Origin: Neolentinus lepideus HHB14362 ss-1
Taxonomy: Eukaryota; Basidiomycota; Agaricomycetes; Gloeophyllales; Gloeophyllaceae
NCBI GenBank assembly: GCA_001632425.1
Contig: KV425580.1
Coordinates: forward strand, 1 to 64,000
Direction: 5' to 3'
DNA length: 64,000 nucleotides
Shown here: in pieces, positions 53,008-64,000 of the stretch
Numbering within the stretch: position 1 is the stretch's first letter
How the letters are laid out: the number at the start of each line of letters is the position of its first letter
The notes under the pieces: model-generated
The model's input: only the letters and a program-made list of their open reading frames with translations
Database searches by the model: none
Told to the model about the DNA's origin: nothing
Program-made: the position numbers and the translations under genes

Positions 53008-53287
53008 GGTCAATTGTGATGAATGAGAGTGGGCATTGAGATAACGAAAAGAGAGATGAAGCACTGAATGGTTAGATTGGAGAATGTTGAAAGGAGATAC
53101 AAAGAGACAACTCAGACATGGTGAAAAATTCAACTTCCACCGCAAGCCATCTGATATTCCCCACACATGTGCATGTAAATCTTATATGCGCAACATGGTT
53201 GAGTGTTGCACAGCCATAGCTAGGTGAACAACAACTCGCCATCTTATCTGGCTAACAAACTTGCATTTTGCTGTTTGCTCAGGGCGG

Positions 53288-56200
53288 ATGGTCGAATGTA
53301 CTGGATGCCTGAGGGAATTCTCATTAGCGGGCTACACTCAGCACCTCCAGCACACTGGCAACCCAGCCTGCTGCACTATATATGAGCAGAATGAGTCCTA
53401 TATGCCTGGTCTGCAAGATAAGCATGTTGTTGAAGATGACGAAAGTGACACGGGAGATAACCTACCTCAGCTGCATGACTTTGCTGGGGATTTCTTCAGC
53501 AATGCATATGCACCAGCAGACTGGGGCATGCTAGATGATGAGCCAGGTGCAACCACAGCAGGTTTGGGCTCTGAGTACGAGGAGAGTGATTCAGACTTGG
53601 AGGACTGGGATCTGGAGGAGTATTGGGAGCTGGAAGCCCCTCAAGCGGTTCCTCCTGGTGCATCTGATGGTGACAATCCTGGGGATGTTGATGATGAGAT
53701 GGTGGGCTCCAAGTCAGTGGCAAGAGAGGACCACATCCAGGCTGAGGAACATCTATGTAGCAAGCTGACAACTGAGAGGTTCCCATCGCAAGCTGCAGGT
53801 TCACCTCTTGCACATGTGAATGGCAGCTTGAACAAGACCAGTTATCAGAAATATTCTGAACAGATCAACGGGTCACCTACAAATCCTTTTGCACCATTCA
53901 ATTTGAAGCAGGACTGGGAGGTAGCACACTGGGCAAAATTGAGGGGACCAGGTTCAACCGCTCTTACAGAGCCACTGCAGATAGAAGACGTTAGTAAAAA
54001 TCCTTGCCTCTGCACTACTGTACTTATGGTAAAGGTGCAGGTCTGCCATTCACTAGGCCTTTCTTACAAAGATGCTGATACATTGAACAAACTAATTGAC
54101 CAGCTGCCGGGAAGGCCCATGTTCAAGCGGGAAGAAGTAGTGGTAGCCGGCGAAGCATTTGAGGTCTATTACCGAGACGTAATCGCATGCATCCAAGCAT
54201 TGTATAGTGATGCAGAGTTTGCCAAAGATATGATATTCGTGCCAGAGTGACACTACACGGTGACAGGCTACAACACACAACAACCACCAAAAACACCTAG
54301 AAAACGCGGAGGGAACTCCGTCTAATAGTGTCAGTAGTCGAAGGGCAGAAGGGTAAAGCTCAGGGGAGGTGAGGAATGCAAAACAGAACACTAAATGGCA
54401 CCGTATATCTCTTTGTGAGTAGACCCAGACGCTCTTCAACTCTTCTAACTCCCTAACTCTCTTACTATACACGTCTCGGTGCTGACTCAGCGCTTCTCGG
54501 AGGGTTCTCGGAGCCGGGCTAGACCAGCTTGTCCTTTTCGGGGACTCGGACGATAGTCGGACGATAGACTGACAGGTTCCTCCACGCCGGAGGACTTTGA
54601 TGACACGATAAGAGGGAACGCCGGTGCAGAAGACTCAGGGAGAACGCAATAGGGACGATAAACGCAGAGGTAAACGCAAGACCTCACGCCGAGGTCTTCT
54701 TAGAACGCAATTCGGATGCAACGAGACTTTGAGATGTGAGCTGTGAGGTAAAATTCGCTGCTGGAAAGGAATATACAGGACGCCTAAAGTACTAAGTGAC
54801 CCGAAGTCTAAGAAACCGCTAAGTCCGAGACCGCCTAACGCTCCATGCGTCTACAATCAGAGAATACAACCAGAAATGCGCCGCCGAGTCTCGCTAAGCT
54901 CCCAAGCCACTCGCCAATCGTCCGCCGCATACCGCTCTTATTCCGAAGCACTCTAGGCAGGTCAGGAACCGCCACCCCAGGGAATATCCTTCCATCTTGA
55001 GCCCGTACAGCGCCTCGGTGTGTCTTGACGACTCGTGCTCGATGACCATCGCCTCGAACTTCATAAGGAGGGCTGACCGAGTGTTGCGACGGCACTGGAC
55101 CGAAACGGGGGCCCACGGCATCCTATCGTATGACGACCAATGACCGCCGAGATATTGCAAGGTCAGACGGAAGGTAAGATCAGCTGGTTTGCGTCAGGAA
55201 GACCGATATGAGTGACTCAGCGTGTTTCGGCGCTTGATGGATGCACCGAGTGCTGCGACTCGTTGCCGCGGAGAGAGTAGGCTGAGTTCCGGAGGTTCCA
55301 AGGATCGTCGTATCGTATGGAAGGGGCAGGGTGTTGAGTAAGCGTCGCCGATGCCATCAGTTCCGTCTTCCGAGCGCATAAGCAACATTCGACAACCTCG
55401 TTGTATCCTGAGTCATCGAATTTGAGTCCCGGTATAGCACCGACAGGCATGCGGTGCGGCGAAGTGTCCACTGCTCGGTGGTGACATCAGTATCCGGCGG
55501 TGCGCATCCTCGGGGATCGCTGATGTATTGAGTCGTAGCTCGGTGAACGCTCGGAGATTCGTCGGTGGTCTCGGTGCTTTCCGCATCGTGTCGAACACGC
55601 CGAAAACGCGTTTTCAGAGGCTAGCGACGCTGGAGGCCTATCAACGGATCCTGATAAGATGGTTAGAATGTACTCAGACATGCACACTGGAAGGTGGTGG
55701 TGGAACACACAGGTTTGTGCTTGTTCCACTGGGTCAACCACTAGAATGGGGAACTAAGCGTGACCCGCAGAAAGCAATTGAGAAGGAGCGCCCTGGAGTG
55801 ACAATAGTCCCTGTCATCCTTTCCTCTGACAAAACCCAGGTCACTCTCTTCAGGAACAAGACCGCGTATCCCATCTATATGACGATTGGCAACTTACCTA
55901 AGGAAATTCACTGTAAGCCATCCTGAGGTGGTCACATCCTGCTTGGCTATCTTCCGACAACTCATCTTGATCACATCACGAACAAGGCTGCTCGCCATTG
56001 AACACTTGCAAACTTGTTTCATTCATGCGTGCAATGGATCCTTCATCCTCTTCGGAAGGCTGGGGTGCTTGGATTGCCAATGGCAAGTGGGGACAGTGTA
56101 CAGTGGCGGGTGCATCCAATTTTTGCGACCTTCATTGGTGACTACCCAGAACAGTTACTTGTCACTGGCATGAAAATGGGAGAGTGTCCAAAGTGTCCAG

Positions 56201-57764
56201 TTTCTCATGATGAGCTTGGAGACTTTGACACAACTTACCAATTATGGGATATCAAAGAAGTCCTTGATGCGCTGGCTACCATCTCAGATGGCCCTCAGGC
56301 ATTTGTCAAGGCCTATGCATCTGCTGGTATCAAACCAATCCAGCATCCATTTTGGGAAGAATTGCCCTATGTGAACATATTTCAGTCAATTATGCCAGAT
56401 ATTTTGCGCCAGTTATATCAAGGCATCATGAAACACATTATTGGATGGGTTACAGAAGCCTCTGGAGCCAACGAGATCGATGCGCACTGCCGTTGTTTCC
56501 CTCCAAATCATAACATACAAATTTTTACAAAAGGCATCAGTAAACTCTTGAAAGTTATGGGAAGGGAGCATGCGCAAATGTGCCAGTTGTTGTTGGGCAT
56601 GGTGGTGGATATACACCTTCCAAATGGCCTTGCAGCCCTGTGTTTAATCAGGGCTGTGCAGGCAATTCTGGACTTCTGTTACTTTGCACAGTATCTGGTA
56701 CACACCAATGACACCTTACAGCAGCTCGGAGATGCATTACGGTGGTTTCATGAAAACAAAAGCATATTTGTTGACCTTGGAATACGGAGTGACTTCAATA
56801 TCCCAAAGCTCCATTCGCTACTACACTATCTCATCTCGATCAAATACTTTGGTACCACTGACAACTACAATACAGAGTACACTGAGCGCCTACACATCAA
56901 CTTCGCAAAGGATGCCTATCATGTGACAAATCACAAAGACAAGTACCCACAAATGACCAAATGGCTTGCCTGCCACAAAAAGGTCCTGCACCATGAAAAA
57001 TACATTAACTGGCACCTTGCAGGATGTCCAGAACCTGCACCAGGGCAACATGGTGATTCTATTCCACGTCCGCATCTGCAGATGACTCAACATCCGACTG
57101 TCAAGGCCGTCCTGCTCTCGGTGGTCCATGCACCTTATGGGGCAACATTCCTTGATGATGCTCTAGTGAGGTTCATAGTGCAATATCATGAGCCTCATCT
57201 GACATGGGCCCAGGTTGAACATGCTGCAGAAAATATCTACGTCCCCTTCCAAACCTTGCCAGTTTTCCACAAGATTAAATTTTGGAATGAGGATCCCTTT
57301 GATCGGCATATAGGGGCAGAGACATCAGATGCTGTTCATGTGAGACCTGTATGTGAGGACTCCCATGGGCATGAAGTTCCTGCCCAATTTGATATGGTAC
57401 TCATCAATCTTGGGGTGGCCGCGTTGTGCAAGTCAGAGTCATTTTTACCCTGCCACCCCATGCGATCGCCTCCCTCTTCTGTATACCTCCACCAAAGCAC
57501 TTGACATACATGGAATGGTTCTTGCCCTTCTCGTCGAGGCCCGAGTGCATAACTGGGATGTATAAGGTTACACGCTCTATTTGAGATGGGCAGAGACTGG
57601 CAAGCATTATACCAGTATCACAGATTTTTTGCAGTGTGCATTTGCTACCTAAGTTTGGACCAGTAGCCCCTTGGCAATGGACTAATGATAGTGTCCTAGA
57701 TGATGCACCAGCTTTCCTTGTAAATCCATTTCTAGATCACCATACTTATGTCTCACTATTGTAA
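53288..57764 (+). mobile_element. Plavaka-type DNA transposase gene, degenerate and split
   Basis: An N-terminal Cys/His motif (CTGCLREFSLAGYTQHLQ..GNPAC) is followed by an acidic region. The conserved core NPFAPFNLKQDWEVAHWAKLRGPGSTA, GRPMFKREEVVVAGEAFEVYYRDV then ends at 54249. The gene resumes at 55644 with MYSDMHTGRWWWNTQ, an intron to about 55770, then TIVPVILSSDKTQVTLFRNK, HPIFATFIGDYPEQLLVTG, FWEELPYVNIFQSIMPDILRQLYQG, FGTTDNYNTEYTERLH and NHKDKYPQMTKWLA. This is the Plavaka transposase family of basidiomycetes. It is inactive: stops at 54247, about 55924, about 56000 and about 57583 fit CGA-to-TGA changes, there is a frameshift near 57412, and a 1383-bp element is inserted at 54261. 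The end of homology is SLL-stop at about 57764. Terminal inverted repeats of the element were not located. Confidence 0.85.
54261..55643. mobile_element. TGAYAGGC element, copy 1 (1383 bp, CpG-rich)
   Basis: Starts TGACAGGCTA and ends TAGCGACGCTGGAGGCCTATCA, so the outer 8-9 bases are an inverted repeat TGAYAGGCY. The 4-bp sequence acgg flanks both sides (54257-54260 and 55644-55647). Deleting the element plus one acgg joins the Plavaka reading frame perfectly (HYT|DPDKMVRMYSDM), which proves the borders. It has no recognisable protein. A homologous copy lies at 61730-63131. CpG is frequent here, in contrast to the surrounding Plavaka sequence, so insertion is recent. Confidence 0.85.
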
Positions 57765-58584: not shown

Positions 58585-58833
58585 TATTGAAAAGGTTATA
58601 TGGCTGTAAATATTCAAAGAATTGATTAGGGTAGGCGCCCACTATTTTGGCACTTCTTATATACTACTCGTACATGTTATGCTAGAATGTTACAGAATAT
58701 ACTATAACATTTAATATGAAATAAATTGAAATACTCAAATATTCTATAATGTCCTTTAAGCATCTATGAGGGTGCTTGTGGCTTGTCCACATGCATGGCC
58801 AAGATGCCCAATGTCACGTGATTCATTCCAACA
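58585..58833 (-). repeat. Copia 3' LTR (249 bp)
   Basis: In element orientation it begins TGTTGGAATG at 58833, directly after the polypurine tract GAGAGGGAG, and ends ccttttcaata at 58585. Its last 188 bases match the LTR at 61213-61400 with few differences. Confidence 0.85.
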
Positions 58834-61197
58834 CTCCCTCTCAGCTTGGACATACCAAGTGCTTTGTGGAAAGCTTTGAATTTTGGTCGAGGAAGCACTT
58901 TAGTAAATATATCAGCTGTATTGACATCCGCAGCACAGTCGGATATGTAAATGTCATTAGACTGTATTTTATCTTGAATAAAATGATATTTCATATCAAT
59001 GTGCTTCGCTTGGCCATGATTTACCAAGTTTTTCGCAAGTGCTATTGTGGATTGATTATCTACCCCAATATGGGTTGGATCTATTTGCAGATACCCCAAC
59101 TCAGTGAGCAGGGATTGCAGCCACACTGCCTATTCTTAATGTAGGTTGCATGTGCCACAGCGTCTGCCCATAGGAATTTTGGCAAATTCCTTGCAAGTAG
59201 AATTGCACATGCATGCTTGACAAGCGTGTGATTAAGTCTTTCAGCAATGCCATTTTGGGATGGTGAGTATGGCACTGTGATTTTGAATATTATCCCATTT
59301 TGTTGTAAATATTTTTGGAATTCTTGATTTGTGAATTCCCTGCCATTGTCCACTTGAAAGTGTTTTAATTTATTTCCTGTTTGGGTTTCTATGAATGCCT
59401 TGTATTCTTTAAATTTAGCCAAGATCACAGCACCTGATTTGTGTTCATCAAAATACATCATAGTGCAGTGTGATTTCATGTCTGTAAACATAAGGAAATA
59501 CCAATACCCTTCTATGGAAATAGTCTGGGCAGGACCCCAGACATCCAATACGGTAATTTCTCTGATGTCTGAAACAATGCTTGTAGACTCAGATGGAAAG
59601 GGTTCCATATGTTGTTTGGCTTGAATACAGGCCTCGCATTGCATAACAGGTTCTGAGGATGGGTCAACATCCATTCCATTGACCATTCCACATCTTTGAG
59701 TTTTTTGACGGCACCCAGATGAATATGCACTAGTGCATGGTGCCATTCCTCCCACATGCATGCAGATTCTATGGCTGCATTTACTGAATTATTTTTAGAA
59801 TATTTATGGTGCAGTCCATAGCATATAACTATCCTGGCCCATTATTTCTTTGGCTGATCCTGATTACCTTCCTGGGTAATAGTTAAAACTCCATTGTTTC
59901 CAGTATAGCCCATTCTGCCCTCATCTGCACAGCATAATGAAATTAAATTTAGTGGTGCATTCAGTGCATATGTAATGTTTTTGAGCATTACTGGAATATT
60001 TGATTTTCCTACTTTGAAATCTAAATTGATGTTGCCTTTTCTGGCCACTTCACATTTGCTGCCTATGCCATCAAGATAAGCACCAGGTGGTGATGCTTCA
60101 AATGTGGCAAGATATTCCTGCTGGCTTGTCATGTGTATTGTGGCACCATTATCAGCGTACCACATTGGGTGCTTGTCTTGCACCACTGTGGCATGTTCTG
60201 GTTGCTCATAAACACCTGTGACTGTGCATGTAAACACTGTTTCAGATGTGGCATTGGCTTTGTTGTTATTTGTATTATTTGATTTTCCCTTTCTTTGGGG
60301 TTTTTGACCTTCTTTACCCCCTCCCTTAGCCCAGCATTGGTCTTTGGTGTGTCCCTTTTTGTTACAGTTGTAGCATATAATATTACTATTTCCTGTATAA
60401 GAATGGCTTTTGTCTTGAACAGGGAGAGCGGAGTCTGAAACTCCAGGCCAGGACTTCCAGCAGTGGTCATCCTTGAGTATATGCACTATTAATTGTGCTG
60501 ATGATGTCATTTTCAGGGTGACAGTATCAATAGACTGGATAAAAGTGTTCCAGGACTCTGGTAATGACATAAGCAATGTAATAGTAAAGTCTTCATCATC
60601 AATGATTTTGCCACCCAATGGGTGAATCTCATCTTGATATTCCCTCATTGATCTGATGTGTTCCTTGATGTTACTATTTTCATCACACTGTGCTCAGAAG
60701 AATTTCCAACCTGTGATTACAATGCCCATTAGGCCGTGTGACTCAAACATCATTTGTAATGTTATCCAGGCTTCACGAGGAGTGGATGCTCTGCATATGT
60801 ACACTAGCACTAGATGCAAGTCAGCGACCCACAAATGGATGGCAGATAATGCCTTTCTATCTTTAGCCTTCCATTCCTTGATGTCAGTCAGGTTGCTCAG
60901 TTCAGTGCTTGCCAACAGCTTCCCTGGTGATGCAGCAGCTGTGATAGGTTCTGGGTATTTACCTTCTTTGGTAACATGTTCTCACAGGTCATTGTCTGTG
61001 AGGATATCCACTATTTTTATGCTCCATGTGGCATAATTATTGCTGTGGAGTGGCTCAATGCAGTATACTGAAGATATATTGCCGCTATTGTTTGACATAG
61101 TGTATGCTAGCTCAGTAGCTACAGATTATGTAATAAGTGAGCTATTAGCTCTTGAGAGTGATTTGCAAATGTAAGCAAGTTTGTATCCTAGAGTCCA

Positions 61198-61212
61198 CTT
61201 GGGCTCATAACC
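61198..61212 (-). other. Copia primer binding site (half initiator-tRNA type)
   Basis: Immediately inside the 5' LTR the minus strand reads GGTTATGAGCCCAAG. Twelve bases (GGTTATGAGCCC) are complementary to the anticodon arm of initiator tRNA-Met (GGGCTCATAACC), the primer type known for copia elements that use a cleaved half tRNA. Confidence 0.75.
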
Positions 61213-61400
61213 TATTGAAAAGGTTATATGGCTGTAAATATTCAAAGAATTGATTAGAGTAGGTGCCTGCTACTTGGGTGCTTCTTATATACTACTCATA
61301 CATGTTATGCTAGAATGTTACAGAATATACTATAACATTTAATATGAAATAAATTGAAATACTCAAATATTCTATAATGTCCTTTAAGCATCTATGAGGG
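61213..61400 (-). repeat. Copia 5' LTR, truncated (188 bp kept)
   Basis: Matches 58585-58772 over its whole length, but the homology stops at gaggg (61400), so the first about 61 bases of this LTR are lost. Adjacent sequence 61401-61729 is unassigned CpG-poor DNA. Confidence 0.85.
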
Positions 61401-61729
61401 CACTGGATTTCATCTACTAGTGAAAAGTTGGATTCAGACAATTATAAAGATGGTGAAGAGAAATAGATGACTACAACAGTCTTCCAGGAGATGGGAGCAG
61501 AAGTGTAGGGTGACAGCAATGAAGAGAAACTTGAGATGATAGTCTGATTTCCTTCATGGTTAGGGATGACATACATCACTGAAAACTCAGATATTGCAAT
61601 ATTCTTCCATTCTGTGTAGCTCCTGCTGACTTGCCATGCATGCAGTTGACTTCATGTTTATAGCACTGTATCTCCCAAAGAGCTTGATTTCAGTTCTGCC
61701 ATTGTAGAGAATAAAACAACCAGGTGCAT
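61401..61729. other. Spacer between copia and TGAYAGGC copy 2
   Basis: CpG-poor sequence, nothing recognised with confidence. Confidence 0.3.
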
Positions 61730-63131
61730 TGACAGGCTAAGACATGCAACAACCACTAAAAACACCTTAGAAAATGCAGAGGGAACTTCATCTAATAGTG
61801 TCAGCAGTCAAAGGGTAGAAAGGTAAAGCTCGGGGGAGGTGAGGGATGAAAAACAACACAATGGAAGGCACCATATATCTCCTGTGAGTTGACCCAGACA
61901 CTCTATGCAACTCCTAACTCTCTAAAACTCTGAAACTACACTTCTCAGTGCTGACTTGGTGCTCCTTGGAGGGTATTTGGTACTGGGCAAGACCAGCTGT
62001 CCATTGGAAGGACTCAGAAGGGTGAATGATGATAGCTCAGAAGGTTCCTCCATGCCAGAGGACTCTAGGATGCAATAGAACACAACGTGGATGCAGTAAA
62101 ACACAGTAAGAACACAATGGAGATGATAAGACACAATGCAAATGCAAGACCTCATGCTGAGGCCAACTAGAATGCAATTTTGAACACAGCAAGACTTTGA
62201 GATGTGAAAGGTGAAGTAAATTTTATGGTGACCCATATGGTGGTCCTGAATGATGGGGGTCTGAGAATACAGGATGTCTAAAGTACTAAGTAACCCAAAG
62301 GTCTGAAATCTACTAAGTCCGACACTCCTTCATCTATCAAATCACACCATATGCAACAAATGAGAAAATATGTCTGAAACCATACTGCTGCAGCATGCCA
62401 TACACCTAACTGAGTACCACTATCATTCTGAAATATGCTCAGCACCTTAGAAACATCTGGTCCAAAGGAAAACCTTCCAAAAATGCTCCATCCAAAGTGT
62501 TGGCACCCATGAATGACTTGTATGAGCTGACTTGCATCTTGAACATCATAAGGATAGTTGACAAAGGTCTGTGATGGCATCAGAGTGGCAAGGAGGGTCC
62601 GCAACACCTGAACTTGGTGCATCCAATCAACTCAGAGGTGCCACATGGTTGAATGGAGGATCAGATCATTGCAAGTGTGTAAGGGAGACTGGATATAGTC
62701 AACTTGGCATGAATAAGCTTGAGTTAGAGGTGCTGAGAGTGCTGAGTGTCATGAAATCACTGACATCGGGGGGTTCTGAAGTTCCTGAATGCTGACTAGC
62801 CTCACAATGCCCACATGATGATGTTCTGGAGCATGTAGGAGGTCTGCCGATAATGTTGGTGCTGCTTTTGAGGTACATAAGGGTCACTTGGTCATCTCAG
62901 CATACAGTAAAGGCTCCGAGGATCTCCAAGGATGTGGTGGTGAGGTACTGAAACTTGGCACAATGTCTAAGTGCATCGGTTGTAGCAGGCGTGTGGCTTG
63001 GAGCTCAGATATGAAGTACATCAGAGTATGGAGATGTGTTGGAGGTGAATTGAAGTGGCAGAGTGCTCTGAGAAGTCATTAGAAACACCAAAAATGCATT
63101 TTCAGAGGCTAGTGGCACCTGAGGCCTATCA
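61730..63131. mobile_element. TGAYAGGC element, copy 2 (1402 bp, CpG-depleted)
   Basis: Starts TGACAGGCTAAG and ends GAGGCCTATCA, flanked by gcat at 61726-61729 and 63132-63135. It is homologous to 54261-55643 along its length, including aacaacca.taaaaacacc near the left end and ttttcagaggctag.g.c near the right end. Positions that are CG in copy 1 are mostly TG or CA here, so this is an older, methylation-decayed insertion. No coding sequence recognised. Confidence 0.85.
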
Positions 63132-64000
63132 GCATTTACTTATAATACTGTAGTGTCTTATCTGTTATTTTACAAGTATGGGCAAGCCGCTCAGCTTCTG
63201 TCATACAATGCCTTGACTGAGACACCAGAGACTACATCAGACCTTGTCTTCTTAAACTTAGGCAAGGACAGAAAAGAAAGAACATATACTTATCTTCGGG
63301 ATTAGGCTCTGTTAGGCAATGGTATGTATCCATCTGGGGTCACCACAGGCCTCAGGGGAAAAGAAGGGCATTGATTAAAGTGCCATCAGAAAGAACCTAA
63401 ATTTCAGCACACACACTGAGAGTGTCAACACCAACATTTGGATATGACCTGGAGGTGAAAACACTTCTAAATTGGAGTGTACAAGCAGTGGCCAAGGCTT
63501 GGTTGAGCCTTGGGTTTGTCAACGTAAAAATGGCATGTACATATTATTTGTCTGCTCTGGCTGTTCATCACTGACACTTACATCTGAGCAGTACACACCT
63601 CCTGATGCACCCTTCAAGATACATGGTCTGTGATCATATACAGCTCAGACAATTCTGGAAAATCAGTTGCAACCAAAAGGTACCAGATAGAATATCAATT
63701 GTGGTTATAAAAAATCATATCAAAATTGCAATGATACAATGAGTTGCTTGTCTAGGTCCATGATGTCTCAAGTCCATTGAAAAAAGTCCATGACATGTGC
63801 ATTACCTGCAAAGAATGTGTCAGGGTCTGAATATCATCAAACAGTCACAACTCACCAACAATAGTGGCAACAATTACATGCCACACTGTGAGGGCTCCAC
63901 CTGCATCACCTGTGCATCCACCCAACCAACTGCTATCGCCTGACCATTTGTCAAAGTGTTCATTGCCTCCAAGGACACATTGATACCATTGTCAGCATGG
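63132..64000. other. CpG-poor transposon-like debris
   Basis: Short open stretches occur on both strands but none could be assigned. The composition matches the decayed transposon region. Confidence 0.3.

Follow-up and report, generated by a model that had tools for sequence, protein, structure and literature searches.

The window analysed here is a 64,000-nucleotide stretch of Neolentinus lepideus HHB14362 ss-1 (positions 1 to 64,000 of KV425580.1, contig 30 of this 33.8-Mb fungal genome). It holds two related segments, copy 1 and copy 2, which share the ends TGACAGGC...GCCTATCA on the window strand and are each flanked by a perfect 4-bp repeat (Table 1). The two copies are 75% identical across the first ~500 bp, match again over one stretch of 60 bp and over the final 47 bp, and represent two subfamilies, A and B. 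No open reading frame (ORF) longer than 132 amino acids overlaps copy 1. A preliminary description of the window had reported these segments as homologous, and its coordinates, lengths, ends and 4-bp repeats were all reproduced. On the evidence of sequence, we are highly confident that both segments are solo long terminal repeats (LTRs) of Ty3/Gypsy-type LTR retrotransposons, and the 4 bp that insertions of the family duplicate are nearly always NCGN or the CA/TG form of this site.

Table 1. Positions of the two LTR insertions and the interrupted transposase gene in the window.
Feature	Positions	Strand	Basis or remark
Plavaka transposase, early part, adjoins LTR 1	53261..54250	+	PF18759, profile 1-73
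Target duplication ACGG, insertion 1, left copy	54257..54260	.	Sequence repeat
Solo LTR 1 (copy 1), subfamily A, 1383 bp	54261..55643	-	Element direction 55643 -> 54261, start TGATAGGC, end GCCTGTCA
Target duplication ACGG, insertion 1, right copy	55644..55647	.	Sequence repeat
Plavaka transposase, later part	56014..57504	+	PF18759, profile 183-325
Target duplication GCAT, insertion 2, left copy	61726..61729	.	Sequence repeat
Solo LTR 2 (copy 2), subfamily B, 1402 bp	61730..63131	-	Sequence comparison
Target duplication GCAT, insertion 2, right copy	63132..63135	.	Sequence repeat

Searches of the genome with both copies recovered many relatives, far above chance. At least 43 sequences matched copy 1 and at least 48 matched copy 2, fragments included; these counts are lower bounds, as 40 of 142 candidates were scored in the first search and 40 of 144 in the second. 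A pattern for the TGACAGGC end, which is common to A and B, occurred at 123 places genome-wide when up to three mismatches were allowed (the first 100 places were listed), and its reversed control at none. The loci that we fetched yielded 90 matched stretches, some of them pieces of one LTR. Before counting, we removed L013, which repeats the locus L085, one row of L041 and a partial one of L061, together with matches below 80% identity and lesser matches that overlapped better ones. Duplication counts used only the 64 LTRs that are nearly complete (35 A and 29 B), so the target statistics below cover part of the 123 places.

Junctions with internal DNA identified the segments as LTRs. On the window strand, the constant flank TCCTCCCCC / TCCTCCCCCATACTTAAATCC follows the LTR in 5 of the 64 full-length copies, and another, CTCCAAAA / GGTGGGCTCCAAAA, precedes it in 5 of 64; the remaining 54 have neither and are solo-like. 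Read in the coding direction, the first flank is a purine tract immediately 5' of the LTR (TATGGGGGAGGA running into TGATAGGC; 13 places genome-wide with 0 mismatches) and the second is a primer-binding site three bases past the LTR (TGTCA-TTT-TGGAGCCCACC; 9 places), and the reversed control gave 0 for each. The orientation of primer site and purine tract shows that the element is encoded on the window's minus strand. Two of the nine primer-site junctions have other LTR ends. At L103 and L104 the identical primer-binding site stands beside the unlike ends TAGCCTATCA and TAGCATATCA, and these are probably further LTR families that use the same primer.

The preliminary description had proposed a search for larger elements that share these ends, and such relatives exist as LTR-bounded elements on contigs C20 and C58. 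The C58 element has its LTRs in direct orientation with CCGG outside both of them. Its LTR pieces are 93.7-97% identical, and the C20 pair is 94.3% identical. A third locus, at the end of a contig (G000 C47:230323-234279), carries two oppositely oriented A LTRs separated by ~1.1 kb. The primer site adjoins one of them and the purine tract the other, making this a rearranged or nested pair.

The DNA between the LTRs comprises 8298 bases in the C20 element (L089) and ~9 kb in the C58 element, of which L048 holds 8470, and the two are 91% identical over their shared parts. We submitted the stop-free pieces of L089 separately to Pfam and obtained matches above the cut-off to an aspartic protease (PF13650; piece 1966-2466), a reverse-transcriptase RNase H (PF17919; 3772-4401) and the H2C2 zinc finger of integrases (PF17921; 4831-5868), an order that identifies the element as Ty3/Gypsy. 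L048, which is partly masked, matched the protease (E = 9e-08) and, under the Pfam cut-off, the integrase core (E = 0.008). The integrase tail was read by eye with no profile run: it contains a GPY/F-like stretch, PRYLGPVIV...GGAYVLAELDG, and no chromodomain is visible in the frames read past the integrase. A search with the integrase found 387 relatives, of which the best among the matches listed is 70% identical; two of the named ones come from Mycena citricolor (57%) and Armillaria ostoyae (55%). We note that the interval between protease and integrase is 2541 bases in L048 (3196-5736, partly masked) versus 1785 in L089. In both copies, antisense ORFs of 112-211 codons lie past the end of the integrase and ahead of the purine tract (L089:6901-7533 and L048:7357-8333, both on the minus strand). 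The three pieces submitted had no Pfam match, and these ORFs may have arisen by chance or may represent an antisense gene.

By eye, the primer site TGGAGCCCACCGCGAGGG is complementary over 18 nucleotides to CCCTCGCGGTGGGCT plus CCA, the 3' end of a transfer RNA (tRNA) gene, and the site in L089 has one difference. A pattern for this tRNA 3' end had 13 matches in the genome, of which 5 exact ones and 1 variant fit the primer site; the reversed control had 7. ARAGORN called a tRNA at the primer-matching place in all four loci submitted. A stricter search that demanded a perfect acceptor stem, GCCCACC...GGTGGGCT, returned three rows, two of which are one palindromic place, and it was the looser pattern that found the tRNA. 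The name that ARAGORN gave to this tRNA varies by locus (L098-L101; His atg, Leu aag). On inspection of the sequence it seems to be a tRNA-Lys (CTT) with an intron.

The borders of the family are proven by the empty sites of two A copies that are nested in B LTRs. When their flanks are joined, these align without gaps to other B LTRs in at least 59 rows (40 and 19, counting only rows that span the junction; one B copy is present twice, as L041 and L061), and at the empty site those B LTRs carry a single copy of the four bases or its CA/TG form. Family sequence is present in a flank of 6 of the 54 solo-like copies. For the borders of copy 1, the preliminary description had relied on the Plavaka gene, arguing that removal of the segment restores the reading frame and proves both ends. 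Copy 1 does split a Plavaka transposase (PF18759 matches the left ORF with E = 3.8e-11 and the right ORF with E = 4.8e-42), and once it is excised with one ACGG the left frame passes the junction and stays open for 36 codons, in which the Plavaka protein, by eye, carries on. The frame is open only locally, however, with a stop four codons ahead of the junction and the frame lost again past the 36 codons, and does not by itself prove a border.

We next consider the choice of target. The 54 solo-like copies comprise 33 with a perfect 4-bp duplication, 15 with one mismatch and 6 with two or three. Among the perfect duplications, 28 read NCGN, and the remainder have CA (3) or TG (2) at the centre; at any of 34 other dinucleotide steps near these duplications, CG occurs in at most 4 of 33 (P = 5e-30 for the centre given the CG frequency of the window and P = 8e-37 given that of the flanks). 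Of all 54 solo-like copies, 47 show a CG-centred 4-mer in one flank or in both, and in 53 both flanking 4-mers have CG, CA or TG at the centre. LTRs joined to internal DNA agree, their outer 4-mers being CG-centred in 10/10; the more divergent LTRs L105, L106 and L107, which stand outside this set, have CCAC, CCAC and GCAC (by eye). Where a duplication has a single mismatch, it falls on the two central positions in 14 of 15 cases, mainly as CG to CA or TG. The two outer positions are only loosely constrained: T is scarce at the first (3/33) and A at the fourth (1/33).

CpGs within the LTRs are decayed as well. We chose CpG sites at which CG occurs in at least 25% of rows and CG, TG, CA and TA together in at least 80%; these read TG, CA or TA in 27% of cases in the 35 A LTRs and 42% in the 29 B LTRs, compared with transitions elsewhere of 1.8% and 1.7%, a contrast that is somewhat inflated because the threshold gives preference to positions with CpG-type variation. 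Around the 54 solo-like copies, the 108 flanks have an observed-to-expected CpG ratio of 0.58; for comparison, 80 control pieces taken at 8 loci have 0.88 (Mann-Whitney P = 2e-12 for flanks against control pieces) and positions 1-50000 of the window 0.98. The loss of CpG in LTRs and flanks is of the kind that long CpG methylation leaves and suggests, short of proof, that the DNA around the insertions is methylated. Decay of CpG thus accounts for the CA and TG centres and for the mismatched duplications.

These features suggest the following life cycle. Reverse transcription primed by the matching tRNA would produce linear complementary DNA with TG...CA ends, and integrase would join these ends to an NCGN target at points 4 bp apart on its two strands. 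The interior would later be lost when one LTR recombines with the other, so that one LTR is left between the original duplications, and CpG methylation and deamination would later erode copies and duplications alike. At 54261, a complete element would thus have entered the Plavaka transposase and lost its interior afterwards.

Several observations weigh against this account. Among the solo-like copies, the flanking 4-mers of 6 of 54 have two or three mismatches, and in 7 of 54 neither flanking 4-mer is CG-centred; we tentatively attribute both to recombination, border error or decay. The purine-tract-side LTR of the C20 element is incomplete, and no duplication can be read there. Both L089 and L048 are degraded, with many stops; the ORFs at the gag position have no gag family in Pfam, and no stop-free piece of either (L048 being partly masked) matched a reverse-transcriptase family. 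One piece of L089 gave a sub-threshold match to Nop10p, an unrelated family, which we took as chance. No B copy with an internal region was among those fetched, so that a full element for copy 2 is inferred from the ends, the duplication and the relatedness that it shares with A.

The preliminary description had read the segments as a self-contained short element with terminal inverted repeats (TIRs), of unknown superfamily. Its conclusion that this is a mobile family whose borders are exact and whose insertions duplicate 4 bp of target stands, and a DNA transposon or miniature inverted-repeat transposable element (MITE), whether of Sola, Ginger or an unnamed group and moved by a cut-and-paste transposase, would explain the 8-bp imperfect inverted ends, the 4-bp duplications and the lack of a longer ORF over copy 1. 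CCGG and CCGT duplications are moreover found in Ginger1 as well. The inverted ends of Ginger1, however, measure 40-270 bp (PMC2836005) against ~8 bp here, where they represent the TG...CA termini of an LTR. Also against a DNA transposon, these segments occur as direct LTR pairs that enclose a pol region with a primer-binding site and a polypurine tract. The constant internal flanks led us to set this explanation aside as very improbable. Given that the segments are LTRs, subfamily B might be the LTR of a non-autonomous relative, resembling terminal-repeat retrotransposons in miniature or large retrotransposon derivatives (TRIM/LARD), that was moved by A-type proteins. None of the 29 full B copies adjoins an A-type primer site or purine tract, and A-like LTRs of 74-83% identity (L105, L106 and L107) retain one or the other. 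Set against this, just 40 of the 144 B candidates were scored, and old families frequently persist as solo LTRs alone; we consider a non-autonomous B doubtful.

The cause of the CG register allows more than one reading too. The integrase may be guided by a tether, for example to methylated or heterochromatic DNA, with the CG centre set by this and not read by the enzyme, and the CpG depletion around the 54 solo-like copies, a mark of long-methylated DNA, would fit. Such depletion may postdate insertion, however, and the enrichment is confined to one step (28/33 at the centre versus at most 4/33 at 34 others), a single-base register that one would not expect tethering to impose. We hold a tether to be unlikely and prefer direct reading of CG by the integrase, since a tether is not expected to pick a single dinucleotide step. 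As a tentative extension, to which we assign a low probability, the intasome would read CpG itself, possibly as 5-methyl-CpG, and so direct the element with single-base precision to methylated DNA rich in transposons, the silencing mark of the host serving as its landing site.

A solo Ty3/Gypsy LTR is ordinary, but a strict central CG is not. With the Ty3/Gypsy elements (Metaviridae) of Agaricomycetes the family shares TG...CA LTRs, a tRNA primer site, a purine tract and a protease, RNase H and H2C2 integrase; it differs in its LTR of ~1.4 kb and in a 4-bp duplication that is almost always CG-centred. Ylt1 of Yarrowia lipolytica is likewise a fungal Ty3/Gypsy element with many solo LTRs (9453 bp; 17 solo LTRs versus 10 full copies), and its LTRs of ~715 bp are half as long (PMC5014426). 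According to one review, most LTR retrotransposons integrate non-specifically and sequence specificity is exclusive to errantiviruses and their derivatives, with the gypsy, ZAM and Idefix groups of Drosophila using palindromic 4-bp targets, TATA, CGCG or ATAT (PMC5408687); the present element is fungal and strict at the two central bases only. Pooled logos in one report on plant LTR elements with 4-bp duplications display GC-rich central dinucleotides in AT-rich surroundings (PMC6911290), a pooled preference, whereas ours is near-absolute and specifically CG.

The preliminary description's lead to Ginger holds as a functional likeness. Ginger1 transposons encode a transposase like Gypsy integrase, and their duplications are CCGG in 75% and CCGT/ACGG in 24% (PMC2836005). 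The direct LTRs and the RNase H speak against membership: Ginger1 has inverted repeats and neither LTRs nor RNase H, and its outer target bases are strict, whereas those of the present element are loose. A literature search over titles and abstract openings showed, among the papers listed, no report of CG-centred integration by a fungal LTR element, with subscription papers mostly outside its reach and absence unproven; in one paper on fungal LTR retrotransposons, 'target site' and 'TSD' are absent from the main text (PMC3248453). The present family, fungal and strict in its central CG, provides an independent case of sequence-specific integration. Comparing it with the ZAM group, which uses CGCG, and with Ginger1, which uses CCGG, could map the integrase residues that read the target centre, and if methylation matters, the use of a silencing mark as a landing site becomes testable.

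As a control, we viewed a Copia-like family represented in the window by a 188-bp LTR. This LTR matches 16 places in the genome, two of which belong to the window element itself. We fetched 12 of the 14 others, and of the 14 rows viewed 8 had an outer left flank. CG lay within five bases of the LTR in 0/8 of these flanks (by eye; a weak control, as the flanks are few and the border uncertain). The window element itself spans 58585-61400 on the minus strand, with direct repeats that are 95% alike and ORFs that by eye resemble a zinc-knuckle gag and an integrase.
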